Shown: positions 2,490 through 49,674 of the stretch, piece after piece
Layout of the letters: every line of letters starts with the position of its first letter
Position numbering within the stretch: the first letter of the stretch is position 1
From: Opitutaceae bacterium
GTDB taxonomy: Bacteria; Verrucomicrobiota; Verrucomicrobiia; Opitutales; Opitutaceae
Assembly (NCBI GenBank): GCA_026125215.1
Contig: JAHCLN010000006.1
Location: forward strand, 1-51,823
Reading direction: 5' to 3'
DNA length: 51,823 nt
Notes under the pieces: generated by a model
The model's input: the letters and a program-made list of their open reading frames with translations, nothing else
Databases searched by the model: none
What the model was told of the DNA's origin: nothing
Program-made: the position numbers and the translations under genes

Positions 2490-3494
2490 TCAGGTCTCGA
2501 TATTGCGGCTGTCGCGCTCGAAGGGCTGGATCTTGGTGGAGGGGGCCTCCGCTTCGCGGGCCATGTGGGCGATCAGCCGTTCGTTGAATTCCTTCGCGGG
2601 GTCGTGGCCCATTTTTTTGAGGGCCTGGGTGAGCGAGGCGACCTCGACGAGCCGGGCCATGTCGCGGCCGGGCCGGACGTAGAGCTCGATGTGCGGCAGC
2701 CGCCGGCCGAGGATGGTGTAGTAGTTCTCCTCCAGGCCGGTGCGTTCCTCGACGACCTCGGGGGTCCATTCCTGGAGCGAAATCACCAGGTCGAGGCGTT
2801 TTTCGAGCCGCACGGATTTCACGCCGAACATCTCGGCGATGTTGATGATGCCGATGCCGCGGCACTCCATCCAGCCGCGGTTGAGCGGGCGGCTGGTGGC
2901 CATGAGTTCGCGTTCGTCCAGCAGCTTGATGACGGTGAGGTCGTCGGCGACGAGCGAGTGGCCGCGCTCGATGAGGGCGAGGGCGCACTCGCTCTTGCCG
3001 ACCCCGCTGGAGCCGCGCAGCAGCACGCCCACGCCCTTGATGTCGAGCGTGGTGGCGTGCTCGGTGGTGGAGGGGGCGAACTCGTTGTCGATGCACAGGG
3101 TCGCGAGGTTCACGAAATTCATCGTGATCATCGGGGTGCGGAAAACGGGCAGGCCGAGTTCGCGGGCGACCGCCATCATGGCGGCGGTGCCGTGATAGTT
3201 GCGCGTCAGGACGAGGCAGGGGATGTGCCGCTTGATCATCTCGCGCATGATGCCGGCCTGCGCGGACTCGGAGAGGGTCTTCACATAGGTCATCTCGGCC
3301 GCGCCGAAGACCTGGACGCGCTTGTTGGCGAAATACTTGAAGAACCCAGTGAGGGCGAGCGAGGGCCGGTTGATGGAGCCCTCCTTGATGAGGCGGTGCA
3401 GGCCGGCCCCGTCGGTGAGCAGCTCGAGCTTCAGCTTTTCGCGGTAGCTCTCGTAAAAATGCGCGACGGTGATCCCGTGGATGGCTTTTTGCAT
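2490..3494 (-). CDS. hprK: HPr kinase/phosphorylase
   Basis: Bifunctional enzyme that phosphorylates and dephosphorylates a serine of HPr, linking carbon status to gene control. The 334 residues show an N-terminal HPrK domain, a Walker A loop GSSGVGKS near residue 160, and the family signature MECRGIGIINIAEMFGVKSV near residue 208. No gene for HPr is in the window. It sits directly after lptB (5 bp apart) at the end of the kdsC-lptC-lptA-lptB run; in Proteobacteria ptsN and hprK also lie near the lpt genes, so the arrangement is partly conserved. Confidence 0.96.
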   Translation of the reverse strand: MQKAIHGITVAHFYESYREKLKLELLTDGAGLHRLIKEGSINRPSLALTGFFKYFANKRVQVFGAAEMTYVKTLSESAQAGIMREMIKRHIPCLVLTRNYHGTAAMMAVARELGLPVFRTPMITMNFVNLATLCIDNEFAPSTTEHATTLDIKGVGVLLRGSSGVGKSECALALIERGHSLVADDLTVIKLLDERELMATSRPLNRGWMECRGIGIINIAEMFGVKSVRLEKRLDLVISLQEWTPEVVEERTGLEENYYTILGRRLPHIELYVRPGRDMARLVEVASLTQALKKMGHDPAKEFNERLIAHMAREAEAPSTKIQPFERDSRNIET

Positions 3495-3499
3495 GCGCG

Positions 3500-4237
3500 T
3501 CAGAGGTTGAAGTCTTCGCCGAGGTAAAACTCCCGGGCCTGGGCGTCGTTGATCAGGAATTCGCTGCTGCCCTGCGTGAGCATTTTCCCGCGGTGGATCA
3601 GGTAGGCCCGGTCCACGATGCGCAGGGTCTCGCGGACGTTGTGGTCGGAGACGACCACGCCGATGCCGCGCTGCTTGAGCCGGAGGATGATTTTCTGCAC
3701 CTCGGCCACGGAGATGGGATCGATGGCGGCAAAGGGCTCGTCCATCAGCAGAAACTTCGGCTTGGTGACAAGGGCGCGGGCGATTTCCAGCCGGCGGCGC
3801 TCGCCGCCGGAGAGGGTGAAGGCCTTTTGTTTCGCCACGTGGCCGAGGCCGAGCTCCTCCAGGTGGTGGCGCACGGCGGCCGGCCGATCGCGGCGCGGGA
3901 TGCCGGCAACCTCGGCGATGGCGAGGATGTTTTCCTCGACGGTGAGTTTGCGGAAAACCGAGGCCTCCTGCGGCAGGTAGCCGATGCCGTGGCGGGCCCG
4001 TTGGTGCATGCGCAGGCGGGTGACGTCCTTGCCGTCGAGCAGCACACGCCCCCGCGTGGCCGGCACCAGCCCGACAATCATGTAGAAGGTGGTGGTCTTG
4101 CCCGCGCCGTTGGGCCCGAGCAGGCCGACCACCTCGCCGGCGGAAAAATTGAGGTCCACGCCGTCCACCACATGGCGCGCGCCGTAGGTCCGGACCAGAC
4201 CTTCCGTGCGGATTTCCGACTGGGCGGCGGCGGGCAT
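3500..4237 (-). CDS. lptB: LPS export ABC transporter ATP-binding protein LptB
   Basis: Cytoplasmic ATPase that powers extraction of lipopolysaccharide from the inner membrane together with LptF/LptG and LptC. The 245 residues show Walker A GPNGAGKTT near residue 40, the Q-loop in GIGYLPQEASVFRKLTVEEN, the signature LSGGERRRLEIARAL, Walker B FLLMDEPFAAIDP and the H-loop VVVSDHNVRETL. The GYLPQEASVFR and DHNVRETL motifs are characteristic of LptB rather than other ABC ATPases. It lies 9 bp downstream of lptA. lptF/lptG are not in the window. Confidence 0.97.
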   Translation of the reverse strand: MPAAAQSEIRTEGLVRTYGARHVVDGVDLNFSAGEVVGLLGPNGAGKTTTFYMIVGLVPATRGRVLLDGKDVTRLRMHQRARHGIGYLPQEASVFRKLTVEENILAIAEVAGIPRRDRPAAVRHHLEELGLGHVAKQKAFTLSGGERRRLEIARALVTKPKFLLMDEPFAAIDPISVAEVQKIILRLKQRGIGVVVSDHNVRETLRIVDRAYLIHRGKMLTQGSSEFLINDAQAREFYLGEDFNL

Positions 4238-4246
4238 GACGGCGGA

Positions 4247-4798
4247 TTACCGGGAGGGCCCGGCCTCCTTGTTTTCCTCGTCGAAGCCGAGATCCTTGAG
4301 CGCGGGCAGCGTGATGCGCGCCCGGTCATCCGGCTCACCCTCGATCACCGCGCGGCGCTGGCCGCGGTAGAGCACCAGCCGCGGACCGGTGGCCACATAC
4401 TGGTCGTCGAGGCTGCGCACGACGGGTGCTTCGCTCAGCACAATGCGGTCCTCGCCCGGAAAAACCTCGGCGCGGCCGCAGGTGGCCTCGCGGTCGCCCT
4501 GCACGATGCGCACGTTGCCGGTGGCGACGAGCGACTTGAAGTTGCCGTAGCCGCCGAGCGTGTCGGCGGGATCGCCCTTGCGGGTGGCCACGACCTGCAG
4601 GAAATCGCAGAAAATCTTCAGGTTGTTGCCCGAGACCACGACCTGGTCGCGAAAGGTCGCGACCGTCTCGGTGTCGGTGCTGACGGTCTCGGCGAGGCCG
4701 GCGCACTCGATCACGGTGGGCGGCGGCTCGGTGGCGCACAATCCCGCGGGCAGGGCCGGGATGATGAGGGCGAGGAGGAGCGGCAGGCGGCGGTTCAT
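4247..4798 (-). CDS. lptA: LptA/OstA-like LPS transport periplasmic protein
   Basis: A 183-residue exported protein with a Sec signal (MNRRLPLLLALIIPALPAGL, cleavage near CA/TE). The mature part is a run of alternating beta strands with the repeated pattern seen in OstA_N domains (VVVSGNNLKIFCDFLQVV, GNVRIVQGDREATCGRAEVF, VATGPRLVLYRGQRRAVIEG). It would form part of the periplasmic LPS bridge. ATG overlaps the preceding lptC stop (ATGA at 4795-4798), and lptB follows, so context supports the call strongly; sequence alone would justify only an OstA-like label. Confidence 0.85.
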   Translation of the reverse strand: MNRRLPLLLALIIPALPAGLCATEPPPTVIECAGLAETVSTDTETVATFRDQVVVSGNNLKIFCDFLQVVATRKGDPADTLGGYGNFKSLVATGNVRIVQGDREATCGRAEVFPGEDRIVLSEAPVVRSLDDQYVATGPRLVLYRGQRRAVIEGEPDDRARITLPALKDLGFDEENKEAGPSR

Positions 4799-5223
4799 TT
4801 GAGGATGTCGGGCAATTGGGCGCGAAACACTATCCGGGCGTCCCGGGTGATGGAAACTTTTTTCTGGGCGTGGTCGTAACGCCAGCCATGGCCCGTGATC
4901 TCAAGGTCGTCGCGGATGACGCGCACCACTCCGGCGCCCTCGACCTCTTCACTCTCCGGGTTGACGGTGGCGACCGGGCTCAGGATGACCGTCTCGACGA
5001 GGTTCCGGGCATCTCCGCTGAACAGCGTCAGCGTCATCTCCCGAAGCTCGATGCGGGCGGCCGTGACCAGCGCGGCCGAGCCCTGCAGCAGCATGGACCG
5101 GTGGCCTTCGCGCGTGAAGGTGGGCAGCCGGAAGCTTTCGACCGGCGTGCCGGCGGTAAGGGTCTGGGCGGACAAGCCCAACGGCAGCGCGCCGAGCAGC
5201 AAAAGGAGGCGGATAAAGTTCAC
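4795..5223 (-). CDS. lptC: LptC-like LPS export protein
   Basis: A 142-residue protein with one N-terminal hydrophobic segment (FIRLLLLLGALPLGLSAQ), then beta-rich sequence ending in VIRDDLEITGHGWRYDHAQK, a pattern shared by LptC/OstA-type beta-jellyroll proteins. I chose GTG at 5223 because it overlaps the kdsC stop as GTGA; an in-frame ATG at 5265 would put 14 extra charged residues before the membrane segment and overlap kdsC by 46 bp. Assignment as LptC rests mainly on its place between kdsC and lptA; the segment could equally be a cleaved signal peptide. Confidence 0.65.
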   Translation of the reverse strand: MNFIRLLLLLGALPLGLSAQTLTAGTPVESFRLPTFTREGHRSMLLQGSAALVTAARIELREMTLTLFSGDARNLVETVILSPVATVNPESEEVEGAGVVRVIRDDLEITGHGWRYDHAQKKVSITRDARIVFRAQLPDILK

Positions 5224-5756
5224 GATGCGGTGTCCTGACCGCGGGCGGCGAGGATATGTTCGCAAATCTCGCGCACGGCACCGTGGCCGGCGGCGCGACG
5301 GGTGACATAACGGGCGGCGCGCAGCGCGGCGGGCATGGCGCCGGGCACGCTGATGCCGACGCCGGCCCAGGCGATAGCCGGGGCGTCGATGTCATCGTCG
5401 CCCATGTAGGCGCAGGCGGCGGCGGGCAGTTTCAATTGCGCCGCGAGTTCCTGCAGGGCGGTGAGCTTGTCGGTGCGGCCCTGAATCAGGTGGGGGATGC
5501 GCAGCTCCTTGGCGCGGGCGGTGGTCGCACCCGAGGGCCGGCCGCTGATCCAGGCGACGGCAAGATTGTTCCGGTTGAGCCGCACCAGGCCCATGCCATC
5601 GAGGATGGAAAACGATTTCGACTCGGTGCCGTCGGAGGAGATGCGCACCGTGCCGTCGGTCAGCACGCCGTCCACATCCATCGCGAAGAGGCGGATGGCG
5701 GCCCATGCCTGCCGGCTGATTTTCGATTTTTGATTTTTGATTTTCGACTGGGGCAT
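5220..5756 (-). CDS. kdsC: KDO 8-phosphate phosphatase (HAD family)
   Basis: Removes phosphate from KDO-8-P in the synthesis of the KDO sugar of lipid A/LPS. HAD motif I is AMDVDGVLTDG, motif II is WISGRPS, and motif IV is GDDDIDAPA. With start ATG at 5756 the product is 178 residues, normal for KdsC. A longer reading from 5846 would add 30 residues by reading through an AT-rich repeat and overlap the upstream gene, so I reject it. Even with the chosen start, codons 2-13 (PQSKIKNQKSKI) are encoded by one arm of that repeat. Confidence 0.92.
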   Translation of the reverse strand: MPQSKIKNQKSKISRQAWAAIRLFAMDVDGVLTDGTVRISSDGTESKSFSILDGMGLVRLNRNNLAVAWISGRPSGATTARAKELRIPHLIQGRTDKLTALQELAAQLKLPAAACAYMGDDDIDAPAIAWAGVGISVPGAMPAALRAARYVTRRAAGHGAVREICEHILAARGQDTAS

Positions 5757-5812
5757 GCGTGGCGGTGAGCGAAGCGGAATAATCGAAAATCGAGAATCAA
5801 AAATCGAAAATG
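5719..5812. repeat. AT-rich word-repeat inverted repeat around the kdsC start
   Basis: Two arms of about 32 bp (5719-5750 and 5781-5812) are built from variants of the word gattttcgatttttgatt and are complementary to each other at about 28 of 31 positions. They are separated by 30 bp that hold the kdsC start codon. On the minus-strand transcript this would be a long hairpin directly after the E1 stop codon, with the kdsC ATG in its loop. The composition is very unlike the surrounding GC-rich genes. Confidence 0.85.
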
Positions 5813-5814
5813 TA

Positions 5815-7842
5815 TCACCCCATCCAGCCGGTGATGGCTTCGACAACCTTGTCCTTGGTCGGGCGGTAGGCCTGCTCCAGCTCGGCGGCGAAGGGCACGG
5901 GGATGTCGAGGGCGCCGAGACGGAGCGGGGCGGCCTTGAGGGCGGCGAAATGCTCCTCGGTCAGGCGGGCGACCAGTTCGGCGCCGAAGCCGTGCGTGCG
6001 GCGGCCTTCGTGGAGGACGATGAGCCGGCCCGTGCGGGCCAGCGAGGCCTTGATCGCATCGAGCCGCAGCGGGGCGAGCCCGCGCAGGTCGAAGAGGTCG
6101 AAGGCGGCTTCGTATTCGCTGGCGAGGTAATCGCACACCTCCGCGGCCATGTGGGTGGCTTCGCCGTAGGTGACGAACGTGCCGAAGTCGCCGTGGCGCA
6201 GTTGGCGGGGCAGCCAGACCTGGCGGTAGTCGGGGTTCCACTGCACCGGCTGCTTGCCGCGGCGGTAGAGGGCCTTGTTTTCGAAAAGGATGACGGGGTT
6301 GTTGTCCTCGTAGGCGGCAAGGAGCGCGTCGAAGGCGTCCTGCGGCGTGCTCGGGTAGAGGGCTTTGAGGCCCGGCAGGGAGAGAAACATGGACTCGAGC
6401 TCCTGCGAATGGAAGGAGCCGAGCTGCACCGTGCCGCAGGGGAAGCGGAACACGACCGGGCAGGCCGCGCCGGAGCGGAAGTGGTAGGTCGCGGCGTTCT
6501 GCGTGATCTGGGTCACAGCTTCGGTGGCGAAGTCGGCGAACTGGAACTCCTCGATGGGGCGGTGGCCGTTGACGGCCATGCCGATGGCGTAGCCGGTGCA
6601 GGCGCTTTCCGCGAGCGGGGTGTTGAAGACGCGCGCCCGGCCGAACTCCTTGAGCAGGCCCTCGGTGACCTTGAAGGCGCCGCCGTATTTGCCGATGTCC
6701 TGGCCGAGCACGATGGATTCCGGCCGCTCGGTCAGGATTTTGCGGTGGGCGGCGTTGATGGCTTGGGCGAGATTGAGGGACTGGGGCTGGGCCGGCTCCG
6801 GTCGCCAAGGCAGCGCTGGGGCGTCGGGGGCAAAAACTTCCGTGACCATGTCGCCGGGCGCCGGCCGGGGGACGGCGAGGCAGGTCTTGACGCAGGCCTC
6901 GAGAAAAGCGCCGAGCTCGTGGTCGATCTCGTCCAGCCGCGCCGCGTGGCCGTCGGCAGCGAGTTGAGCCCGCAGGCGGGGCAGGGGATCCTGCGCAAAG
7001 AAGGCCTCCGACTCGCCGGGCTGCATGTAGTCGCAGGTGTCGTAGGCCGCGTGGCCGCGGAGCCGCAGGGTGCTGACTTCGATCAGGACCGGACGCGAAG
7101 TGGTGCGGACTTTTTCGATGGTGGAGGCGAGGGTGCGGGTGAAGGCGGGGACGTCGGTGGAGTCGGCGGCAAAGCCCTCGATGCCGTAGCCGGCGGCCCG
7201 CTGCCAGAGCTCGGCGCCGGCGTATTGTTCGTTCAACGGCGTGGAGTAGGCGTAGCGGTTGTTCTCGATGACGAAAATGACCGGCAGCGAGAGCAGCGAG
7301 GCGAGGTTGAGGGACTCGTGGATGTCGCCGGTGCTGGAGGAGCCGTCACCAAAAAAGGCGAAGCCGACCGCGGGCCGGCCCTGCCGACGCTGGGAATCGG
7401 TCGCGCCGACCACATTCGAAAGCATGATGCCAAGGTGGCTGATCATGGGCAGCGAGCGGTTGGCCGGGTCGCCGTGGTGGATATTGCCCTCCCGGGCCTT
7501 CGTGGGGCTGAGGGCGTTGGCAAAATACTGGTTGAGGTGCTCGCAGAGATGACCGCTCCAGATGATATGGCCGCCGAAGCCGCGATGGGAAAACGAGATG
7601 ACGTCGTGCGTCTTGTCCGCGAGCAGCGTCAGGGGCACGATGAGCCCTTCGTTGCCCATGCCGCCGGTGACGGTGCCCTTGATCAGGCCCTGACGAAAAA
7701 GGTCGAGGATGCGGTTGTCGGCCGTGCGGGCGAGTTGCATCCAAGCGTAGATGCGCAGGAGGGAGTCGGCGGGTGATTTTTCCAACTCAGGTCCGCGCAG
7801 ATCGCGCGAGGCCAGGATGGCGGGAGGTTCGGGAAATGCCAT
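5815..7842 (-). CDS. Fused 2-oxoacid dehydrogenase E1 (alpha plus beta), TPP-dependent
   Basis: The roughly 675-residue protein joins both E1 subunits in one chain. The N-terminal half has the TPP-binding motif GDGSSSTGDIHES...IENN and the GHAAYDTCDYM loop of E1-alpha. The C-terminal half, from about LNLAQAINAAHRKILTERPE, has E1-beta features (VLGQDIGKYGGAFKVTEGLL, FNTPLAESACTGYAIGMAV, VLHEGRRTHGFGAELVARL). It is probably a branched-chain or pyruvate-type E1; substrate cannot be read from sequence. No dedicated E2 lies next to it. ATG at 7842 is chosen; an ATG at 7869 and a GTG at 7893 are in frame upstream. Its stop abuts the word-repeat hairpin before kdsC. Confidence 0.92.
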   Translation of the reverse strand: MAFPEPPAILASRDLRGPELEKSPADSLLRIYAWMQLARTADNRILDLFRQGLIKGTVTGGMGNEGLIVPLTLLADKTHDVISFSHRGFGGHIIWSGHLCEHLNQYFANALSPTKAREGNIHHGDPANRSLPMISHLGIMLSNVVGATDSQRRQGRPAVGFAFFGDGSSSTGDIHESLNLASLLSLPVIFVIENNRYAYSTPLNEQYAGAELWQRAAGYGIEGFAADSTDVPAFTRTLASTIEKVRTTSRPVLIEVSTLRLRGHAAYDTCDYMQPGESEAFFAQDPLPRLRAQLAADGHAARLDEIDHELGAFLEACVKTCLAVPRPAPGDMVTEVFAPDAPALPWRPEPAQPQSLNLAQAINAAHRKILTERPESIVLGQDIGKYGGAFKVTEGLLKEFGRARVFNTPLAESACTGYAIGMAVNGHRPIEEFQFADFATEAVTQITQNAATYHFRSGAACPVVFRFPCGTVQLGSFHSQELESMFLSLPGLKALYPSTPQDAFDALLAAYEDNNPVILFENKALYRRGKQPVQWNPDYRQVWLPRQLRHGDFGTFVTYGEATHMAAEVCDYLASEYEAAFDLFDLRGLAPLRLDAIKASLARTGRLIVLHEGRRTHGFGAELVARLTEEHFAALKAAPLRLGALDIPVPFAAELEQAYRPTKDKVVEAITGWMG

Positions 7843-7923
7843 GTCCAAAACCCGACGTTGGGCGGGCATATCGTCGCGGGCAAGCCTGCGCACCGGGGGC
7901 TTTTGCGAAGATTTTGCGCTGTG

Positions 7924-8607
7924 TCAGAGAGACAAGCTCTCGCCGGCGGCCAACACCCGCACGGCGTGTCCCGCGGCGGTTGCTCGACGTGCGAAAGCCT
8001 CGGGGTCGGTGCGGATCGCGTCGAAGGTGTTGTAATGCATCGGCACCGCCAGCCGGGGACGAAGCAGGGCAAGTGCTTCCAAGGCTTCCTCCGGTCCCAT
8101 GGTGTAACGGTCGCCGATTGGAATCAGCGCGAGGTCCAATCTGTGCCGGCCGATGAGTGCCATGTCGCCAAACAGCGCGGTGTCGCCCGCGTGGTAGAGT
8201 GTGCGGCCGGCGGCCTTGATCAGATAGCCGCTCGCGACGCCCATGGCGCGGTTTTCTCCGTCGGGCAGTTCCAGGGCCGAGCTGTGAACGGCAGGTGTCA
8301 TCTGGATGCGGCCCCAAGGCAGGTCGAGGCCGCCGCCGGGCATCAGGTCGATGCTCTTGGCGCCCTGCGCGGCGAAGTGGTTGGCCAGCTCAAACGGTGC
8401 GATCACCGTCGCACCGTGCAGGCGGGCCAGCGCAAGGGCGTCGCAGATGTGGTCCTGATGGGCGTGGGTGCAGAGGATGTAATCGCACCGCACCGTGGAG
8501 GGATCGACGGCGCCGTGGGGATTTTCGGAAAGAAAGGGATCGATCACGAGCACCGCCCCGGGCAACTCGACGCGGAAACAGGAGTGGCCGAAATAGGTCA
8601 GGCGCAT
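7924..8607 (-). CDS. Metallo-beta-lactamase-fold hydrolase, UPF0173 (UlaG-like)
   Basis: A 227-residue single-domain hydrolase. Metal ligands are visible as THAHQDH near residue 48, AVHSS near residue 108, GDTALF near residue 140 and PMHYNTFD near residue 187, and the N-terminus MRLTYFGHSCFRVE is typical of UPF0173. The natural substrate of the family is not settled. Start ATG 8607 is chosen because it aligns with the family start and lies 5 bp after the stop of the upstream small membrane protein; an upstream in-frame start at 8646 would overlap that gene. Confidence 0.9.
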   Translation of the reverse strand: MRLTYFGHSCFRVELPGAVLVIDPFLSENPHGAVDPSTVRCDYILCTHAHQDHICDALALARLHGATVIAPFELANHFAAQGAKSIDLMPGGGLDLPWGRIQMTPAVHSSALELPDGENRAMGVASGYLIKAAGRTLYHAGDTALFGDMALIGRHRLDLALIPIGDRYTMGPEEALEALALLRPRLAVPMHYNTFDAIRTDPEAFARRATAAGHAVRVLAAGESLSL

Positions 8608-31034: not shown

Positions 31035-32063
31035 ATGGCCAAATACAAACTGGAATACATCTGGCTCGACGGCTACACGCCGCTCGCCAGCCTGCGCAGC
31101 AAGACGCAGATCAAGGAATACGCCGGCTTTCCCAAGCTGGAAGAGCTCCCCAACTGGGGTTTCGACGGCAGCTCGACCCAGCAGGCGGAGGGCAAGAGTT
31201 CCGACTGCGTGCTCAAGCCGGTCGCCGTATTTCCGGATGTCACCCGGCGCAACGGCGTGCTGGTCATGTGCGAGGTGATGATGCCGGACGGCAAGACGCC
31301 GCATCCGTCGAACACCCGCGCCACGATCCCGGACGATCCGGACACCTGGTTCGGCTTTGAGCAGGAATATTTCTTCTACAAGGACGGCGCGCCCCTCGGC
31401 TTCCCCGCGGGCGGCTTCCCCGGGCCGCAGGGTCCCTACTACACGGGTGTCGGCTACAAGAATGTCGGCTCCGTCGCCCGGGAGATCGTCGAAAAACACA
31501 TCGACCTCTGTCTTGACGCCGGCATCAACCTCGAAGGCATCAACGCCGAGGTCGCCAAGGGTCAGTGGGAATTCCAGATCTTCGGCAAGGGATCCAAGAA
31601 CGCGGCCGACCAGATGTGGGTGGCCCGTTACCTCCTGACCCGCCTGACCGAGACCTACGGCATCGACATCGAATGGCAGTGCAAGCCCATCCGCGGGCCT
31701 TTCAACCAGCCGCTGGACTGGAACGGCTCGGGCATGCATTCCAACTTCTCCACCAAGCGCATGCGCGAGGTCGGCGGAAAGGAATACTTCGAGAAACTCA
31801 TGGCCGCCTTCGCCAAGCACATGGACGAGCACATCGCGGTTTACGGTCCGGACAACCACCTCCGCCTCACCGGCCTGCACGAGACGCAGTCCATCGACAA
31901 GTTCACCTACGGCCTGGCCGACCGAGGCGCCTCGATCCGCATCCCCCACAGCTTCATCAACAGCGGCTACAAGGGCTACCTCGAGGACCGGCGTCCGAAT
32001 TCCGCCGCCGACCCGTATCTGGTCGCCGGCCGGATTCTCAAGACGATCCTCAGCGTTGGCTGA
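31035..32063 (+). CDS. glnII: Glutamine synthetase type II (GSII, eukaryote-like)
   Basis: Makes glutamine from glutamate, ammonia and ATP. At 342 residues it is far shorter than GSI (about 470) and has GSII landmarks: EYIWLDGYTPLASLRSKTQ, NWGFDGSSTQQAEGKSSDCV (substrate-side loop), WFGFEQEYFFYKDG (metal glutamates), GQWEFQIFG, SGMHSNFSTKRMR and ADRGASIRIP. ATG 31035 (MAKYKLEYIW) is chosen; the in-frame extension upstream would cross the promoter. A strong terminator follows. Bacterial GSII occurs in rhizobia, actinobacteria and some other groups, often by old transfer. Confidence 0.96.
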   Translation: MAKYKLEYIWLDGYTPLASLRSKTQIKEYAGFPKLEELPNWGFDGSSTQQAEGKSSDCVLKPVAVFPDVTRRNGVLVMCEVMMPDGKTPHPSNTRATIPDDPDTWFGFEQEYFFYKDGAPLGFPAGGFPGPQGPYYTGVGYKNVGSVAREIVEKHIDLCLDAGINLEGINAEVAKGQWEFQIFGKGSKNAADQMWVARYLLTRLTETYGIDIEWQCKPIRGPFNQPLDWNGSGMHSNFSTKRMREVGGKEYFEKLMAAFAKHMDEHIAVYGPDNHLRLTGLHETQSIDKFTYGLADRGASIRIPHSFINSGYKGYLEDRRPNSAADPYLVAGRILKTILSVG

Positions 32064-32082
32064 TCGTTGACTGCTTTTGGGC

Positions 32083-32112
32083 AAGCGCCGGCCTGCGGGC
32101 CGGCGCTTTTTT
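32083..32112 (+). terminator. Rho-independent terminator after glutamine synthetase
   Basis: aagcgccggcc and ggccggcgctt form a perfect 11-bp stem around tgcg, followed by four further T's. It starts 19 bp after the glutamine synthetase stop and separates it from the ligase gene. Confidence 0.92.
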
Positions 32113-32186
32113 GTGTCCGCACCCTGCGGTTGTGGGCGGTTTTTGGATCGCGCCGGCCGCCCGGGCGGGATGTGCTCGGGCATCGA

Positions 32187-34085
32187 ATGATGGCGGCAAG
32201 CGCACCTTCCAGTCCTTGGTCCGGCCGGCTTGAGTGGCTGCAGGCGCTGGTCCTCGCGGCGAACCTCGGCTGGACCACGCTTGGCCTCGGCGGCTACCGG
32301 CCGGAGACGATGGTGGTGACGAGCGCATTGACCGGCGCCCTGCTGCTGCTGCACGGCCTGCGGTGGGGTTTGTTCCGCCCGGCCGCCCGGTTGCATCCGG
32401 CCGGCTGGTGGTTTTTGCCCTTCCTCGTTTACGCCGCGGCCAATGTGATGTGGGTCACGCCCGTGCGGTGGCTCGGTTGGCACGACTGGCTCTGGTGGGC
32501 GCAGATGATCACGGTGTTCTGGGTTGTTCTCAACGACATCACGCGCCCGCGTCCACGGTTGCTGTTGGCGGCAACCCTCGGGCTGCTGGGCTTCGTTGCC
32601 GTGGTGCTGGCGGCTTACCAGACCTTCGTGCGGCCGGATTGGTTGATGTTGGGACGCACGCAGGCCGAACAGTTTCTCGGCCGGGCGAGCGGGCCGTTTG
32701 GCATCCCCAACAGTCTGGCCGCGCTGCTGCTGCTGTTTTTCCCGCCGGCAGTGATGGTCGCTTGGCGGTCCGGTCCGGCCGCCGGCCGGCTGTTGGCGGG
32801 TTATTTGGCGCTGGCCTATCTGTTCGGGCTGGTGCTCACGGTGAGCCGCGGGGCCTGGCTGGGGCTGGGATTGGCTGTGTGCCTGTGGCCCTTGTTGGCG
32901 CCGGGCCGCACTTGGCGGCGGCGCCTGGGTTTGGCGTTGGGAGCCGGCCTGCTGGTCGTGAGCATCGGATGGAGCCTGTATGCGACGGTTCCGCCGATGC
33001 GGGAGCGATTTGATGCGCTGGTGGCCGAAGCGGGAGAGCGGACGCGGCCGGTGATGTGGCGCGGCGCCTGGGCGCTCTTCCGGGAGAATCCGGCCTGGGG
33101 CAGCGGGGCGGGCAGTTACAACGTCGCATTCGAGAAGCACCGGCCCGAGCATTACCAGCTGGACTCAAAATGGGCACATAATGACTACCTCAACACCCTG
33201 AGTGACTACGGTGCCGTGGGCTTCGCCTTTTTCTTCGGCGCGGTAGCGGCGGTCGCCGGAATCTGCCGCTGGCGCGCCGGCGAAGCGGCTCCAACCCAAG
33301 CGGCGGCGGACGGTTGGCTAGATGATCCGCGGGTGCGTCAGGGGATTGGGCTCGGCCTGCTGGCCTTTGCCTTCCAGCTGTTCGTTGACTTCCACCTGAA
33401 GATTCCGGCTTTGGCCATGACCTTGGCCGCGATCGCGGCGTTGCAGGTTCAGCGGTTGTGGGCCGTGCCGCGCCCGCAAAGCGGATCCACAGGTGGCCGC
33501 CGGTTTGGGATGCTGGCCTTGGCCGCGGTGGTGGCGGCGGGAGTGCCGCTTTTCGTTACCACTCATTATCGGGCGGAAACGTGGCGCTACTCGGCCCGGC
33601 AGGCGATGGACCGGTTGGTAGATGCGGAGGTGACGGCTTATCGCGAGGTATTGGAGCCGGTGCAGGCCGCGCTGGCGCGGGCGACGCAAACGGACGCCGG
33701 CAACGCCCAGGCTTGGGCCGACCGCGCGCAGGCGACGATTTTGTGGGCGCATGTGGAGCCGGTGCGAACGCGGGAGTTGGGGGTGGAAGCGGAACAATAT
33801 GCCCGTCGCTCGCTGGAGCTTTCGCGCGCCGGCATCGAGCCATGGCTCCGGCTGGGTGCCGCGCTCAACATGCAGGGACGCTGGCCCGAGGCCGGCGATG
33901 CTTTCGGCGAAGCCATGGCACGGGCGCCCAACAATGCGCGGGCGTGGTTCCATCAGGCTTACCATCTGAGCCTTAACCCCATGACCCGGGCGGCTGCCCG
34001 CTCTGCGGCGGCGGTCAGCTTGCGTCTTGACCCCGGTTACCGTCCGGCACAGGTTTTACGCCAGCAATTGGCATCAGCACCCTGA
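32187..34085 (+). CDS. O-antigen ligase/polymerase-like membrane protein with C-terminal TPR-like region
   Basis: A 632-residue protein with about 11 membrane helices in its first 430 residues. The large periplasmic loop holds RGAWALFRENPAWGSGAGSY and HNDYLNTLSDYGAVG, the pattern of the Wzy_C/WaaL ligase domain. After the last helix, residues about 500-630 form helical repeats (NAQAWADRAQATILWAHVEP, EAGDAFGEAMARAPNNARAW) like TPRs. It may add or polymerise surface polysaccharide. Start ATG 32187 or 32190 is chosen since the earlier frame crosses the terminator. Confidence 0.88.
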   Translation: MMAASAPSSPWSGRLEWLQALVLAANLGWTTLGLGGYRPETMVVTSALTGALLLLHGLRWGLFRPAARLHPAGWWFLPFLVYAAANVMWVTPVRWLGWHDWLWWAQMITVFWVVLNDITRPRPRLLLAATLGLLGFVAVVLAAYQTFVRPDWLMLGRTQAEQFLGRASGPFGIPNSLAALLLLFFPPAVMVAWRSGPAAGRLLAGYLALAYLFGLVLTVSRGAWLGLGLAVCLWPLLAPGRTWRRRLGLALGAGLLVVSIGWSLYATVPPMRERFDALVAEAGERTRPVMWRGAWALFRENPAWGSGAGSYNVAFEKHRPEHYQLDSKWAHNDYLNTLSDYGAVGFAFFFGAVAAVAGICRWRAGEAAPTQAAADGWLDDPRVRQGIGLGLLAFAFQLFVDFHLKIPALAMTLAAIAALQVQRLWAVPRPQSGSTGGRRFGMLALAAVVAAGVPLFVTTHYRAETWRYSARQAMDRLVDAEVTAYREVLEPVQAALARATQTDAGNAQAWADRAQATILWAHVEPVRTRELGVEAEQYARRSLELSRAGIEPWLRLGAALNMQGRWPEAGDAFGEAMARAPNNARAWFHQAYHLSLNPMTRAAARSAAAVSLRLDPGYRPAQVLRQQLASAP

Positions 34086-43827: not shown

Positions 43828-43865
43828 GCCGAGCTAGCTCAGTTGGTAGAGCAACGCTTTCGTAA
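43828..43865 (+). pseudogene. Left attachment site: 5' half of tRNA-Thr(CGT)
   Basis: Thirty-eight bases are identical to positions 1-38 of the intact tRNA at 49599, from the acceptor 5' strand through the anticodon loop; then the sequence changes to tcagacac, with no 3' half. This is the original tRNA 5' end cut off by integration (attL). The native tRNA promoter presumably still lies to its left. Confidence 0.92.
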
Positions 43866-44004
43866 TCAGACACTTACAAAATTTCCTGAGTGGTCTTGGC
43901 TAATCCTGCTTCAACTAGTGTCTTCATGGCAGAGAATTGCGAAATTTGTGTCATCATCCTGAATGAGCCTCAATTCTCGTCAAAAGTCGGAAATTTGAAC
44001 ATCG

Positions 44005-44025
44005 GGTGACAACTCAGGGTGACAA
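44005..44025 (+). promoter_or_regulatory. Left tandem GGTGACAA boxes (integrase arm sites)
   Basis: GGTGACAA at 44005-44012 and again at 44018-44025, 13 bp apart. The same pair with the same spacing is at 49523-49543 near the right end. The left pair is about 140 bp inside the left repeat. Confidence 0.7.
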
Positions 44026-44971
44026 CAATTCAGAGGGTAGAGCAACGACCCGTAAGTTAGTTGCTCAACTCCCAGCCACTCGGCTGGTGCCTCCATTCGC
44101 CGGCGTTACCCTCGTCGAGCATCGCGACCGGATCGAACTGTGCCCGACCTATTGGGTCCGGGAATTCGTTGCCTTGGGAAAAATCAAAGCCGGAGACATC
44201 GACACCTCGCAGAACCATTTCATGCGCGCGGTTTACGAAGGCGTGAAGCCCGACCGGGAGATTTGGGCTGTGGCGGTCTGGCAGCGATACGAGGACGGGC
44301 AGGAGGAAGCCGACCTGATCGACTATCTCGATCCTGACGCATCCGAGGAAGACGCCCAGAAAGCGTTCCAGCACATGGTGCGTTTCAAAGGTAAAACCAA
44401 GAAGGAGCTGCAGGATTTGGCATCGATGTTTGCAGCCACCGAAGACGATCTGGCCTACATTGAAAACCGGTTTCCGGAGGCGAAGCTTGGCCCGCCCCAG
44501 TCTGGCAACATCGACGATAAGGACCTATATCAAGCCCGCCTCAAGGTCTTCGCGGGCATGCAGCCCAAAACCGTTGAACTGATTTGCAAGGCCGACGAAT
44601 GCGAAGACCCGACGGAACGCGCAAAATACGAGAAGGAAGCAGTCCAAGCCTACTTTGCCGAGATGGCCCATTGCATGACCGAGGACGAAGTCATCACCTG
44701 GCAGCGCACCAATCCGGTCGGCACAACCTGGATGTGCGAATTCGCCCGGGTGTTTAGCGAACCGGAAAAGGAAATCGACCAGATCAATTACGAGCTGGCG
44801 CTGAATTGGCTGCGCAACAAATACAACCTTCTCACCGCCGAGGAACTCTCGGACATCATTCTCGCCAGAACCGGGCAGCGCCTGATGCCGGGCACGCTAA
44901 AAAAGCGACGTGAGCGCCTCGGCCTGACCACCAAGCGCCAGCCCGGACCCCGACCAAATTCAGAGCGATAG
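44006..44971 (+). CDS. Unknown protein encoded by the island, C-terminal HTH-like
   Basis: A 321-residue product that I do not recognise. The middle is acidic and helical (QEEADLIDYLDPDASEEDAQ, AKYEKEAVQAYFAEMAHCMT). The last 50 residues (LLTAEELSDIILARTGQRLM, LKKRRERLGL) look like a helix-turn-helix with a basic tail, so DNA binding is possible. The start is doubtful: GTG 44006 lies inside the left GGTGACAA boxes, and a tRNA-like 12-mer follows; translation may begin further in, for example at the in-frame GTG near codon 28. Confidence 0.65.
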   Translation: MTTQGDNNSEGRATTRKLVAQLPATRLVPPFAGVTLVEHRDRIELCPTYWVREFVALGKIKAGDIDTSQNHFMRAVYEGVKPDREIWAVAVWQRYEDGQEEADLIDYLDPDASEEDAQKAFQHMVRFKGKTKKELQDLASMFAATEDDLAYIENRFPEAKLGPPQSGNIDDKDLYQARLKVFAGMQPKTVELICKADECEDPTERAKYEKEAVQAYFAEMAHCMTEDEVITWQRTNPVGTTWMCEFARVFSEPEKEIDQINYELALNWLRNKYNLLTAEELSDIILARTGQRLMPGTLKKRRERLGLTTKRQPGPRPNSER

Positions 44972-45010
44972 AGATTGGGACGGTGGCACCCGGCGTGGTG
45001 TCCCAATCTC
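44971..45010. other. Perfect 11-bp inverted repeat, origin candidate
   Basis: gagattgggac (44971-44981) and gtcccaatctc (45000-45010) pair perfectly around an 18-base loop containing ggtggcacccggcg. It lies between the unknown gene and the HTH-Rep pair and has no T-run, so it is not a normal terminator. HUH Rep proteins nick at hairpin origins, often close to rep; this is the best such hairpin in the island. Confidence 0.5.
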
Positions 45011-45044
45011 CTGCGCGAGAAATTCAGGGCGCTAAGGTGCGCTC

Positions 45045-45254
45045 ATGAATTCAGAAACCCTCACCAGTGCGCCGCCCAAACTGGCGCTCACCCGCGAAGA
45101 GGCCGGCGAATGTCTCGGCCTCAGCGCGATCACCGTGGACCGCCTCGCCAAGCGCGGTCTGCTCCGGCCCTCCCGGGCCACCCGTCGGCCGCTCTATCCC
45201 GTCTGGGAGATCGAGCGGTTCCTCCGCGAAACCTCCGCGCATCTCGAGCCATGA
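45045..45254 (+). CDS. Small HTH protein (excisionase/AlpA-like)
   Basis: A 69-residue helix-turn-helix protein: LTREEAGECLGLSAITVDRL then AKRGLLRPSRATRRPLYPVW and EIERFLRE, the winged-helix pattern of excisionase/MerR-like HTH_17 domains. It could direct excision with the integrase or regulate rep, whose ATG overlaps its stop (ATGA, 45251-45254). Confidence 0.85.
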   Translation: MNSETLTSAPPKLALTREEAGECLGLSAITVDRLAKRGLLRPSRATRRPLYPVWEIERFLRETSAHLEP

Positions 45255-46114
45255 GCGTGGACCCTCGCCACTATCCCGACCTGGCGCGCGCCTACGCACA
45301 CGCGCCCAACCCCGCCAGCATCCTCCGGCCCTACCATCCCGCCTCATGGTTCCACCCCGTCGGCATCTGGAAAGTCCTCGCGAAGCTCAAACCCCGGCTG
45401 CCCGACGTCGGCGGCAGGCTCTTTCTGACCTTCACCCTCAACCCAACCCTCTTCGCCAATCCGTCCCTCGCCTTCGAGACCGGCCGCGACCAGCTCCGCC
45501 GCGTCTTCTTCAAACTCCGCCGCGGCGTGGAGTGGGAGGGCAGGCGCTACGTCATTGATGCCCCCTACTGCGTCAAAGTGGAGTTTCACGAAAACGGCTG
45601 GGCGCATTTCCACGTCGTCTTCCTCACCCGCCGCTTTCTGCCCGGCCCGCTCCTCAACGACATCTGGGCCTACGGCCGCACCAACGTCCGCCGCATCCGC
45701 AACGACGAATTTCACTACCTCCTGAAATACGTCACCAAAGGCGCCGGCCTGCCCGACTGGATCAAAAACCGCACCCGCCTCCGCGTGTTCCAGTCCTCCC
45801 GCGGCTTCTACCGCACGCCGGCCGCCGCCAAACCCCCGTCGAAGCCCACCGGCCGCAAACGCAAAACCAGCCTCATCGGCGAACGCCTCCTCCGCTGGTC
45901 CCGCACCGCGCTGCTCCAAACCGGCGAACAGTTCCGGCAACTCATCCTCGGCGCTCCCTTCGCGGATCTCCTCGCCGAGCACATCCTTTCCGTCGCTCAG
46001 GACCGTCGTTACCTGGGCAACGGGCATATCCTGATCAACGACCTAACCCAACTCATCCCATGGATAAGAAACCAGTCAGAATCAGCACCGGGGGTCTTTA
46101 CCTCCGCGGCCTAG
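45251..46114 (+). CDS. HUH endonuclease replication initiator with two tyrosines
   Basis: A 287-residue rolling-circle Rep. Motif I is FLTFTLNPTLF near residue 60, motif II WAHFHVVF near residue 119 (H-hydrophobic-H), and motif III YLLKYVTK at residues 156-163, which matches the Y-x-x-K-Y-x-x-K form of phiX174 gene A and related Microviridae/inovirus initiators. Such enzymes nick one strand of the origin and use the two tyrosines in turn. ATG 45251 overlaps the HTH gene stop. The C-terminal 100 residues are basic and unlike the core. Confidence 0.85.
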   Translation: MSVDPRHYPDLARAYAHAPNPASILRPYHPASWFHPVGIWKVLAKLKPRLPDVGGRLFLTFTLNPTLFANPSLAFETGRDQLRRVFFKLRRGVEWEGRRYVIDAPYCVKVEFHENGWAHFHVVFLTRRFLPGPLLNDIWAYGRTNVRRIRNDEFHYLLKYVTKGAGLPDWIKNRTRLRVFQSSRGFYRTPAAAKPPSKPTGRKRKTSLIGERLLRWSRTALLQTGEQFRQLILGAPFADLLAEHILSVAQDRRYLGNGHILINDLTQLIPWIRNQSESAPGVFTSAA

Positions 46115-46401
46115 TGGTATCCAGCTCCGCCCATGCGTTCCAACGCAAGGACGGCTCCGGAACCGTTGTCAGAGTCCAGCACGAGATCGCCACCCAACCC
46201 GGGGTCGTGCTCTTCGAGCAATACCTCAGCCCGAGCGAAAACCCCGAAGTGAAAGTGGAAGGGGACAAGGTGACCGCCTACCCGCAGTTGCCGCAGTTCC
46301 ACACCCTCACGCTCAAAGTCACCCGTTACCGGATGGACCGCGAGCGGTTGGTGGTCACCGCCGGTGAAGAGATCACCGGCCCGGAAAGCGCGTCGGGCTA
46401 G
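46060..46401 (+). CDS. Possible single-stranded-DNA-binding protein of the island
   Basis: A 113-residue beta-rich protein (RISTGGLYLRGLVVSSSAHA, GTVVRVQHEIATQPGVVLFE, FHTLTLKVTRYRMDRERLVV). Its size and place directly after rep (55-bp overlap) are like gene V-type ssDNA-binding proteins of filamentous phages, but there is no sequence motif that proves it. Otherwise unrecognised. Confidence 0.6.
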   Translation: MDKKPVRISTGGLYLRGLVVSSSAHAFQRKDGSGTVVRVQHEIATQPGVVLFEQYLSPSENPEVKVEGDKVTAYPQLPQFHTLTLKVTRYRMDRERLVVTAGEEITGPESASG

Positions 46402-46591
46402 GCGACGCAAGAAGCTCGCCCTGGCGAGCCGGCGTCTCGTGGCCGAACAGGACGCGAGTCGTAGGAATCCCAGCGCCACGAAGGGTCAGACCAAAGTGAA
46501 ACCGAGCAATCGGAGTAACGGCGGGATGACATTTCGTGGCGCTTTTTATTCCCCCGGCTGGACCGCTCGGGCCATCCCAAACCGAAACTAG
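46364..46591 (+). CDS. Possible small basic protein
   Basis: A GTG-started 75-codon frame with a very basic N-terminus (RSPARKARRARRRKKLALAS) that overlaps the preceding gene by 38 bp. It could be a small nucleic-acid-binding protein of the element, or a chance ORF before the terminator. I see no family signal and the later residues are low-complexity. Confidence 0.3.
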   Translation: MKRSPARKARRARRRKKLALASRRLVAEQDASRRNPSATKGQTKVKPSNRSNGGMTFRGAFYSPGWTARAIPNRN

Positions 46592-46619
46592 TTCATCACC
46601 CTGACAAACTCAGGAAATC

Positions 46620-46681
46620 GGCCCGGTTCCGGATGCGGATGCGGCCGTCAGGCCGCACCGCATCGGCACCGGGCCTTTTCC
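46620..46681 (+). terminator. Long hairpin terminator after the Rep module
   Basis: Nested arms ggcccggt/accgggcc, gatgcgg/ccgcatc and tgcggcc/ggccgca close on loop gtca and are followed by TTTTCC. It ends the HTH-Rep transcript. From 46682 to 46781 there is an AT-rich leader for the next operon in which I see no gene; a weak promoter may be there. Confidence 0.82.
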
Positions 46682-46781
46682 TTGTTTCTATGGTTAATAA
46701 GTGTCCAGCTAGTGGAACTCTTGAGATTATGCTAAGTCACATTTTTAAAACCTTGAAGCTTGCTATGCCCAAGCAGGCTGC

Positions 46782-47555
46782 GTGAAAGTCATTCAACTCT
46801 TCCTACCTTTGCAGATTGCCCAAGTCCAGTTCGTAACGGCGTTTCCTGCCCAAGAATCGCTACTATCGCGCTTGGACACTGTTTTAAACAAACTGTCCAA
46901 AGCTTTAAATGGCCAGCGAATAAATCCTAAGGTCTCGAGTCATAACGCGCCCGCAGAAATACCGCGTAGCCTCATCATTGCCCAAAATACATTTGTTCAG
47001 GTCGCTTTAAATCGCATCGAGATGCGTCTTTCCCCCCCAGAGCATGTGTCTGGCTCTGTTGACGCCTCGGTAAAGTATTTCGGCGATGTCCTAAAGGGAC
47101 TATTTGGTGAAATGTTAACTGTAGCTCCAAGGGCAGATTGGGTAGGAGCTGTTCTTACGGTTCAATATCCAACAAGGCATGCAAAGACCGCTATCCAAGC
47201 AGTTCATCCGGCTTTTAAAAAACTTCTGACCATACCGGACCCAGGTGATAACCTATCCGCATTTCATTTCATGTATGGAGTAAGGCATGGCGATCACTTT
47301 AAGCATATAACAGTTCAAGGATATCACACGAGTGAATTTCAGGCAGACATAAAGCCGGGTGAGGTCGTTAATATACCACTTGAACAAGCAACAATCAAAG
47401 AAGTTGGTCTACAGCTTCTACTTGATGTAAATAATAAGCCTTCTCCAACTAAACAGGGGACAAGCGAAGAGTTTATGAAGGTCCTTTCCGCGTTGCAGGA
47501 TTATGCTAGAACAGCACCCAATGAGCTAGGTTTAGACATTATTTTGAATCAATGA
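46782..47555 (+). CDS. Cargo protein A of unknown function (AT-rich operon)
   Basis: A 257-residue product from GTG 46782. It alternates strands and helices (RSLIIAQNTFVQVALNRIEM, GDVLKGLFGEML, WVGAVLTVQYP, GVQLLL-like VGLQLLLDVNN), weakly reminiscent of the TIGR04255 family of small proteins found in defence and accessory regions; I cannot confirm this. There is no membrane segment or obvious catalytic motif. Codons are rich in A/T in contrast to all neighbours, a sign of recent transfer. The next gene starts inside its stop (ATGA). Confidence 0.7.
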   Translation: MKVIQLFLPLQIAQVQFVTAFPAQESLLSRLDTVLNKLSKALNGQRINPKVSSHNAPAEIPRSLIIAQNTFVQVALNRIEMRLSPPEHVSGSVDASVKYFGDVLKGLFGEMLTVAPRADWVGAVLTVQYPTRHAKTAIQAVHPAFKKLLTIPDPGDNLSAFHFMYGVRHGDHFKHITVQGYHTSEFQADIKPGEVVNIPLEQATIKEVGLQLLLDVNNKPSPTKQGTSEEFMKVLSALQDYARTAPNELGLDIILNQ

Positions 47556-47899
47556 ATACCGCCACAAAACCTCAATCAACTATTAGTATTGTAAGAGATG
47601 CTCAACACACTGGAACACTTTCGAATTCCAAGTATGACTTTATTGTGGACCAAGTAGCTGCAGGACTTATTAACGACCCTTCCTTTATTGAATGTCTGGC
47701 TGAAAAAATGATCACTCAGGAATTTATCGAAAAAATAGCAGCAGCAGTTTCAGTATCTGGCAGCGACCCATTTGATAGTATCTACATTTCAGACTTAAAG
47801 CCAGATGCACTCAGTGCTAAGATCATTGCGGATATTGATAATGTTTCCGGCATAACAGACGTCTCTGATATAATCACGTTCGACGACGATTTAGATTAA
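47552..47899 (+). CDS. Cargo protein B, small acidic (AT-rich operon)
   Basis: A 115-residue acidic protein (DPFDSIYISDLKPDALSAKI, ending ITFDDDLD). It has a helical first half (FIVDQVAAGLINDPSFIECL) and looks like a small partner or inhibitor rather than an enzyme. No family recognised. Overlaps both neighbours by 1-4 bp, so it is translated with them. Confidence 0.7.
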   Translation: MNTATKPQSTISIVRDAQHTGTLSNSKYDFIVDQVAAGLINDPSFIECLAEKMITQEFIEKIAAAVSVSGSDPFDSIYISDLKPDALSAKIIADIDNVSGITDVSDIITFDDDLD

Positions 47900-48405
47900 T
47901 GTTCCTCACGGATGCCGAAGCCAATTTTGGGAGACTGCTGCAGGGGGACGTAATCAAAGACGTTCCACTGGTTTCGACTTTGGCTTTAGACAGAGTTCAA
48001 GCTGTAGGACAATCTGCTTGGGCGTATAACGGTAGCCTAAAAACAGGCTATTGTGCTGTGCTTTCCCATTCTTGTGAAATCGCCATCGAAAACGGTGAGA
48101 AAGTTACAAGCTGTATTCTTGCACCAATACGCAAAGCAGATGGGGCGACTACACCGGAACTCTTTGAAATATTACGAAGAAATGAAGTGAAAGAGGGTCA
48201 GAGTAACTTTATTAAATATTTCTATATTCCGATGCATGAGAAATTGGATTATCCAAGGGGTTCACTTGTGGATTTATCCAAATTGTTCAGTGTAAGGAAG
48301 ACTTCAATAGAGCAATTAATTAATGGAAAAATCCTAGAAATGACCGACGATAATAGGGTGCTATTTGCAAGAAAATTGGCTCTATATTTTTACCGTGGGC
48401 CATGA
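47899..48405 (+). CDS. Cargo protein C with SHSCEI motif (AT-rich operon)
   Basis: A 168-residue protein. It has LLQGDVIKDVPLVSTLAL followed by GYCAVLSHSCEIAIENGEKV and SCILAPI. I recall a loose group of accessory proteins with a GDII-x-(D/N)-x-P start and a SQSCDI/SHSCEI motif near residue 55, present in defence-like loci, but know no established function. The paired His-Ser-Cys-Glu could bind metal or act catalytically; this is speculation. Convergent with the integrase (5 bp). Confidence 0.7.
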   Translation: MFLTDAEANFGRLLQGDVIKDVPLVSTLALDRVQAVGQSAWAYNGSLKTGYCAVLSHSCEIAIENGEKVTSCILAPIRKADGATTPELFEILRRNEVKEGQSNFIKYFYIPMHEKLDYPRGSLVDLSKLFSVRKTSIEQLINGKILEMTDDNRVLFARKLALYFYRGP

Positions 48406-48410
48406 CTGTC

Positions 48411-49508
48411 TTAGAAGATTACGCGGCGAATCATTGTAGTGCTGTGCTGTTGTCGTAGGTGGCCATAAACACGCATTGCCAGTGCCCCGCCGTCTTTGTG
48501 ACCTAGCCATCTGCTCACGGTGGGAATGTCCACCCCCGATTCAATGCATGTGGTTGCAAAGAAATGCCTGAAGTCGTGGTGCGTAAAATGCGGATAGCCT
48601 AGACGGCGGCAGGCGGTGGCGATGCACTTCTTGGCGCTGTCGATCTTGCTCACGAAATCCTCGGGCTTCGGCTTCTGCTCCAGACTCAGCCGCTCCAGGA
48701 GCGACCGCAGGGCTGACGTCATGGGCACGGTCCGGGTCTCGTGGTTCTTCGTGCCTCCTTCACCGCCGGTAATCGTCACGGTGTTCTTCTCGAAATCCAC
48801 GTGCTTCCATTGCAGCGACGTCCCTTCCGACAACCGGCACCCCGAGTAGGCCAGCAGTTCGACCAGATCGGCCCCATCCTTGGCCTTGCGCTGGCTGTCG
48901 GCCCGGCCGTCGGACTCCCGGATGGCGGCAATCAGCTTGTGGAACTGCTCCTTGCTCGGAATCTCAATCCGGGCCTGCACCACCTTCCGGCGCGGGATGT
49001 CGGCCGCAGGGTTGTTCAACATCAGCCCCAGCTTGATCGCGTAATTGAACACCGACCGCATCAGCTCCAATTCCCGGTTAAACGTCATCCCAGCCACCTT
49101 GGGCGAACGCTCCGCCGCCCACCGCTCGCAATGGTGCCGCTGGATGTTCCGAATCGTGACGCTGGCGAAGTAGGGGGCCAGCGTGGCAGCGCATTCTTCC
49201 CGTCGCTGGGCCGACCTGGGCTTCAGGCTATGCACCGTTGAGGCCATCCACCGCTTGGCCACTTCCTCAAAGGAAGAGCGCGCATCCTCGGTCACCCGCA
49301 GGTTCGAGACCTGGCTGCGGAGTTCGGCCAGCCGTCGCTCGGCCAGCTTGCGGTCCTTGGTCTTGAGCGACCGGCGAAATTGCTTGTCACCCCGCTTGAG
49401 CAAAGCGTAATACCCGCCACTCTGTTCCAAGCGATAGAGGTTTTCCGCCACCCGATGAAACACCAACTTACGAGCCGCCTTAGCCTGTCCAAGAGCTTCG
49501 GTTTTCAT
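48411..49508 (-). CDS. Tyrosine-family site-specific integrase
   Basis: A 365-residue recombinase. It has an N-terminal arm-binding-like domain (YRLEQSGGYYALLKRGDKQF), a SAM-like core-binding domain (FEEVAKRWMASTVHSLKPRS to FNYAIKLGLMLNNPAADIPR) and the catalytic domain with Arg I in AYSGCRLSEGTSLQWKHVDF, H-x-x-R in THHDFRHFFATTCIESGVDI, histidine in WLGHKDGG, and Tyr in MRVYGHLRQQ. ATG 49508 is chosen; starts at 49520 and 49562 are also in frame but run into the arm boxes. It lies 90 bp from its target tRNA. Confidence 0.95.
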   Translation of the reverse strand: MKTEALGQAKAARKLVFHRVAENLYRLEQSGGYYALLKRGDKQFRRSLKTKDRKLAERRLAELRSQVSNLRVTEDARSSFEEVAKRWMASTVHSLKPRSAQRREECAATLAPYFASVTIRNIQRHHCERWAAERSPKVAGMTFNRELELMRSVFNYAIKLGLMLNNPAADIPRRKVVQARIEIPSKEQFHKLIAAIRESDGRADSQRKAKDGADLVELLAYSGCRLSEGTSLQWKHVDFEKNTVTITGGEGGTKNHETRTVPMTSALRSLLERLSLEQKPKPEDFVSKIDSAKKCIATACRRLGYPHFTHHDFRHFFATTCIESGVDIPTVSRWLGHKDGGALAMRVYGHLRQQHSTTMIRRVIF

Positions 49509-49522
49509 GCTCAAAAGCATAT

Positions 49523-49543
49523 GGTGACAAAAGCGGGTGACAA
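49523..49543 (+). promoter_or_regulatory. Right tandem GGTGACAA boxes (integrase arm sites)
   Basis: GGTGACAA at 49523-49530 and 49536-49543, 13 bp apart, just upstream of the integrase start and 56 bp from the right repeat. Same orientation and spacing as the left pair. They may also let the integrase repress its own promoter. Confidence 0.7.
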
Positions 49544-49598
49544 CTCCAATATCCCGGGGCAAAAGTTCATTCGTAACTCATTGTTCCAACAGTAATTT

Positions 49599-49674
49599 GC
49601 CGAGCTAGCTCAGTTGGTAGAGCAACGCTTTCGTAAAGCGTGGGTCGTCGGTTCAAGTCCGATGCTCGGCTCCA
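49599..49674 (+). tRNA. tRNA-Thr (anticodon CGT)
   Basis: Seventy-six bases with a 7-bp acceptor stem (GCCGAGC/GCTCGGC), D-arm agctcagttggtagagc, anticodon loop TTCGTAA (anticodon 49632-49634), T-arm gtcggttcaagtccgat, and encoded CCA. Its first 38 bases are the right copy of the island repeat, so the 5' half here was brought in by the element and its upstream flank is element DNA. Confidence 0.97.

Follow-up and report, generated by a model that had tools for sequence, protein, structure and literature searches.

The operon at positions 46782–48405 of the window (the whole 51,823-nucleotide stretch of Opitutaceae DNA that was analyzed) raises the question of what three overlapping, AT-rich genes do when they are carried between a replication gene and an integrase. 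The original prediction described these genes as a translational unit of unknown function in the usual cargo position of defense or anti-competitor genes. The operon comprises:

46782–47555, plus strand: P1, 257 aa with a GTG start; it stands where related operons have their TIGR04255 gene, is very divergent, and has no profile match
47552–47899, plus strand: P2, 115 aa, acidic (net charge -13), in the position of a small partner or putative antitoxin
47899–48405, plus strand: P3, 168 aa, a member of the phrog_4575 family with a predicted MazF/CcdB fold, a putative effector toxin

All three ORFs were confirmed, with P1 and P2 overlapping by 4 nt (ATGA) and P2 and P3 by 1 nt (TAATG), and the middle protein is small and acidic, as described. 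The sharp difference in base composition claimed for the operon is also real: its GC content is 42.3% versus 64.1% for the whole window, of which it is the lowest-GC 1.6-kb segment, and the GC3 of its genes is 33–39%. A scan for promoters and terminators gave results at chance level.

No Pfam or NCBIfam model identifies any of the three proteins, PADLOC 2.0 found no match for them at E ≤ 1, and its best match for three homologous operon sets reached only E 0.057. Weak Pfam matches of P3 to nSTAND_NTPase4 (E 0.04) and Pox_E10 were dismissed as chance. Direct searches with the window P1 and P3 found no homologs among phages and plasmids, in viral or genome contigs, or in 195 genomes belonging to the phylum, and solved structures searched by sequence gave no match for the P3 or P1 families. 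In keeping with the original prediction, none of the three proteins matches a housekeeping or phage structural family.

The surroundings of the operon are more readily recognized and include the following features:

43828–43865, plus strand: left att repeat, a copy of the tRNA-Thr 5' half and an exact 38-bp direct repeat
44006–44971, plus strand: backbone ORF of 321 aa with no family match
44975–46114, plus strand: Rep, a REP_ORF2-G2P rolling-circle initiator (PF23343 E 1.7e-10, residues 149–256)
45045–45254, plus strand: HTH_17 protein, excisionase- or regulator-like (PF12728 E 3.7e-6), conserved in sister elements
46060–46401, plus strand: gene of 113 aa following Rep, with 37–70% identity in five sister elements
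48411–49562, minus strand: tyrosine integrase (PF00589 E 5.2e-22; phrog_1 E 2e-59)
49599–49636, plus strand: right att repeat, lying in the intact tRNA-Thr(CGT) gene (49599–49674) as its 5' half

The operon is thus the cargo of a 5.8-kb element at tRNA-Thr, in which 38-bp att repeats, an integrase, and a replication gene are all present. Rep and the integrase flank the operon, so its location is as originally described. The true start of Rep probably lies further inside the listed ORF, and a single-strand-binding role for the 113-aa product is a guess. No recognized structural or transfer genes were found among the ORFs checked in the element (43828–49636).

Sister elements in the bacterial family of the host combine related Rep, HTH, and g5-like genes with other AT-rich cargo; those at L118 and L119 share a related integrase too, and at L118 38 nt of the tRNA-Arg 5' half are likewise duplicated. 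The cargo at L118 is an FRG protein (PDC-S15; 2820–3866) and at L120 a SIR2 protein of 1312 aa (4003–7941; PADLOC Dsr1 E 3.4e-53), each encoded in the interval from the g5-like gene to the integrase, while at L119 an FRG/PDC-S15 protein (2808–3914) is encoded among others downstream of the g5-like gene. Based on this FRG and Dsr1-like cargo, the cargo space of this element family holds defense-type genes, which bears out the reading of the operon's position as a cargo slot, the g5-like gene/integrase interval being used in two of the three sister elements. The cargo at L119 also includes a RadC-like gene and unknown AT-rich genes. Judged by a Rep match, 12 of 120 (10%) sampled genomes of the host's family have a related element that carries other cargo. 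In the chromosomal part of the window, positions 32001–33000 show a strong AT skew (-0.436) over a membrane-protein-like gene.

Relatives of the operon were reached through a second Verrucomicrobiota genome (G129), in which matches to phrog_4575 and TIGR04255 share a contig, separated by a 142-aa ORF. The same three-gene order is found on the Phocaeicola plasmid OY726032, and the three-gene set is present in the Pseudomonas phages Dobby and VW-6S. The P2 gene of VW-6S (L015, 3666–3983) is labeled "integrase" through a truncated ORF (VW6S_17), a label that is probably wrong. A three-sequence P3 alignment used as the query retrieved 36 genome loci and 40 viral contigs; by record title, the genome loci belong to Pseudomonadota, Desulfobacterota, Bacteroidota, Verrucomicrobiota, Campylobacterota, Cloacimonadota, Hydrogenedentota, Actinomycetota, and Bacilli.

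The original prediction had called for a survey of co-occurrence, and the full three-gene set recurs at 74 of these 76 loci, with P2 (~93–168 aa) and P1 upstream of P3 on the same strand and in the same order. The P1 proteins are mostly 234–294 aa long and mostly TIGR04255, and the intergenic gaps are mostly -41 to +26 nt. The two exceptions are a locus at a contig edge (L080) and one whose P3 reading frame is interrupted (L081). Because the loci were retrieved with P3 alone, the upstream P1 and P2 genes constitute independent evidence. The window operon shows the same gene order on one strand, with its overlaps of 4 and 1 nt, and is a divergent member of a widespread three-gene cassette on phages and mobile elements.

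Within Verrucomicrobiota the P3 family is rare, occurring in 3 of 388 genomes including that of the window, and no closer relatives of the Bacilli type were found among viral contigs. Close copies of a related operon are present in 92 of 5426 E. coli genomes, where they are annotated as "TIGR04255 family protein" followed by two hypotheticals. In the one E. coli record inspected, the operon belongs to a lambdoid prophage and lies between the Q antiterminator and holin genes on the opposite strand, a usual site for cargo genes. Among 127 neighboring proteins of the genome loci, Phage_integrase is the commonest family (six proteins) and some defense-related models are matched; the enrichment of integrases and defense genes is modest.

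The link of the window to this family is clearest for P3, which matches phrog_4575 at E 7.8e-6 and the P3-family HMM at E 4.4e-15 (hhalign probability 98). The PHROGs entry for phrog_4575 carries neither a function nor a link to the two upstream genes. The family, traced through the 76 loci in several phyla, is marked by the motifs QGD and S-N-[ST]-C-D and by a C-terminal Arg. Both sequences noted in the original prediction, GDVIKDVP and SHSCEI, are present in the window P3 and map onto the first two of these motifs, which are invariant or nearly so: across 47 sequences the polar residues Q, D, S, C, and R are found in all, and N and D in 46. The window P3 retains Q15, G16, D17, S56, C59, and R166; alone among the 47 it has H57 instead of N and E60 instead of D, changes that may have altered or weakened it. 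The persistence of invariant polar residues across such great divergence suggests an active or binding site.

P1 was originally said to weakly recall TIGR04255, a family that NCBIfam describes as a sporadically distributed protein. This was right about the position, as a clear TIGR04255 gene stands there in most homologous operons and the E. coli copies bear that NCBI label, but the window P1 itself falls below any threshold: it has no NCBIfam match at E ≤ 1 (the TIGR04255 cut-off is 30 bits), the TIGR04255 model has zero matches in the genome of the window, and the protein is unrecognized by P1-family profiles. The P1 proteins of Bacilli (L050–L053) are missed by the P1 profile too, though they belong to the same operon. 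In global alignments with the window P1, 57 family P1s score higher as a group than 197 control proteins (p=3e-11); the best family pair, with L050, has a z-score of 5.5, and the best unrelated control 4.5. No trustworthy alignment of the window P1 with its relatives was obtained, and on these statistics kinship with the family P1s is likely.

A structure model of a TIGR04255-type family P1 (L086; pLDDT 90.3) shows a two-lobed sheet-and-helix protein with no clear fold relative, the best VIA score being Z 8, to S-adenosylmethionine decarboxylase. An AdoMetDC/prozyme fold was considered, as it filled the top rows of Foldseek, and was rejected; because the TM-scores were poor and VIA Z values did not exceed 8, the fold of the P1 family is left without assignment.

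Most family P2s contain a hydrophobic stretch, which in most cases lies close to the N terminus (the 17-residue KD mean is at least 1.6 in 25 of 57 and exceeds 1 in most), together with an acidic body and a conserved C-terminal F-W-D-L-like end. The window P2 agrees with them in size, acidity, and position alone: its hydrophobic maximum is 1.06, its C terminus is unlike that of the family, it has no profile match, and an alignment test for kinship gave p=0.11. Only its position speaks for membership of the window P2 in the P2 family.

A model of the window P3 built on 47 family sequences (pLDDT 74.8, pTM 0.74) resembles toxins of the MazF/CcdB class. Foldseek ranks MazF first (4mzp_A, E 4.4e-5, probability 1.00), VIA gives MazF-mt3 a Z of 11.7 (103 residues at 2.4 A), CcdB about 10, and Kid 8.8, and among viral models (BFVD) phage PemK-like proteins rank first. 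The original statement that no protein has a familiar enzyme motif holds at the sequence level, although the fold predicted for P3 points to toxins of this class. As in the MazF/Kid/CcdB superfamily, a GD motif lies on the first strand and the P3 gene directly follows a gene for a small acidic protein. In contrast to that superfamily, P3 is longer, has a separate set of invariant features (QGD, SN-x-CD, and a C-terminal Arg), and belongs to an operon of three genes, the first encoding a 250-aa protein.

When the P3 family is aligned with MazF of E. coli K-12, with the motifs as anchors, the catalytic residues Arg and Thr of the latter (E. coli R29 and T52) are not conserved: the matching P3-family columns hold V/T/A (with R in 4 of 47) and I/V/F/L, respectively. 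Because this catalytic pair is absent, ribonuclease activity of P3 is unsupported, and the name "mRNA interferase" should not be applied to it. Instead, P3 would either have a different active site, for which the residues around Q-G-D and S-N-x-C-D and the C-terminal Arg are candidates, or block a target by binding, by analogy with CcdB.

As P3 is predicted to adopt a MazF/CcdB-like fold, the most likely role of the operon is that of an anti-phage system of the toxin-antitoxin type, and we consider it fairly probable that it is a divergent, mobile, three-gene module of abortive infection. In the uninfected cell, P3 would be produced together with P1 and P2 and be held inactive by both, P2 acting as the putative antitoxin and P1 as a possible sensor or stabilizer. 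Infection would upset P1 or P2, releasing P3, and the freed P3, if it is a toxin, would halt growth or translation so that the infection aborts. The mobile element, here an integrative element and elsewhere a temperate phage, would gain by having its host shielded from competing phages.

One possible form of this mechanism, about which we are tentative, resembles a toxin-antitoxin-chaperone system: P1 would hold the hydrophobic segment of an aggregation-prone antitoxin, P2, until a phage product displaced P2 from P1, whereupon P2 would be degraded and P3 released. In CmdTAC, which offers a precedent, the antitoxin is dislodged from its SecB-like chaperone by the capsid protein of the phage (PMC11618068). 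The cassette resembles CmdTAC in its three genes, its toxin-like effector, and a small partner that, in most family members, has a hydrophobic segment, acidic body, and F-W-D-L-like end; the confident, two-lobed P1-family model, which is without enzyme likeness, is also compatible with such a role. However, the gene order differs from that of CmdTAC, and no SecB-like chaperone was found in the P1 family, SecB being absent from the chains compared with the L086 model. The hydrophobic stretch of P2 could instead be a membrane helix, and the wiring is weakest in the window itself, where P2 lacks a strong hydrophobic segment.

The folds of MazF, CcdB, and Kid are those of classic addiction toxins, and the operon is found on integrative elements, phages, and one plasmid, as would be expected of an addiction module that stabilizes its element or prophage and has no role in phage defense. 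We regard this as unlikely: the FRG and Dsr1-like cargo of the sister elements is of the defense rather than the addiction kind, the E. coli prophage carries the operon in a moron position, and there are three components, not two. Less probable again is that P3 is a non-toxic protein of MazF fold, such as part of a sensor or regulatory complex acting on host or element genes. The absent MazF catalytic residues and the lack of an enzyme signature in P1 and P2 would suit such a role, but the invariant polar residues of P3 point to an active or binding site, and in other TIGR04255 operons the third position is held by PIN or HEPN-like genes. That the AT-rich ORFs have decayed or arose by chance and serve no function is very improbable, for although the window P1 and P2 are unrecognizable by sequence and P3 deviates at N57 and D60, the three ORFs are intact and translationally coupled, P3 matches its family and keeps all other key residues, and the architecture is that of 74 other loci.

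The other TIGR04255-headed operons also bear on the anti-phage reading. In the Verrucomicrobiota locus L011 the third gene encodes a PIN protein (PF01850 2.8e-11); in L004 it is HEPN-like (PF05168 5e-4, 20.5 bits versus a cut-off of 22) and in L126 more weakly so (0.11). Third genes of other Verrucomicrobiota operons of this type come from unknown families, and the middle gene at L005 contains an HTH. The 265-aa third gene of L005 (2961–3758) has a QGS...ITQACDL pattern that by eye is like the QGD...SN-x-CD of P3; the P3 profile does not match it. A further TIGR04255 operon recurs at L006, L008, L009, and L129, with a middle gene of ~175 aa and a third gene of ~145–163 aa that contains the motif ARFLTQ and, in the L129 copy, has no Pfam match.

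These observations suggest that TIGR04255 operons have a common front part and exchangeable effectors. A broader proposal, plausible though somewhat short of an even chance, is that they are undescribed three-component defense modules borne by phages and islands, in which a conserved P1, as sensor or stabilizer, and a small, variable P2 control interchangeable toxins (MazF-fold, HEPN, PIN, and others). On that same footing, the MazF-fold effector would have a new active site, and the window would represent a strongly divergent MazF-fold branch.

Our literature search found no paper mentioning TIGR04255 or its function and no description of the operon or of the E. coli proteins, and the main text of DefensePredictor mentions neither MazF nor PemK nor TIGR04255; the three-gene cassette is apparently previously undescribed. 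TIGR04255, annotated in many genomes and so far without a role, is now tied to a fixed cassette with a MazF-fold third gene. Together with the presence of this cassette in temperate phages, including E. coli prophages, this link yields a specific function to test and an experimentally accessible laboratory system. If the defense hypothesis is correct, the cassette would be a new module with exchangeable effectors, one of them possibly a protein of MazF fold whose action does not depend on the active site known from MazF.
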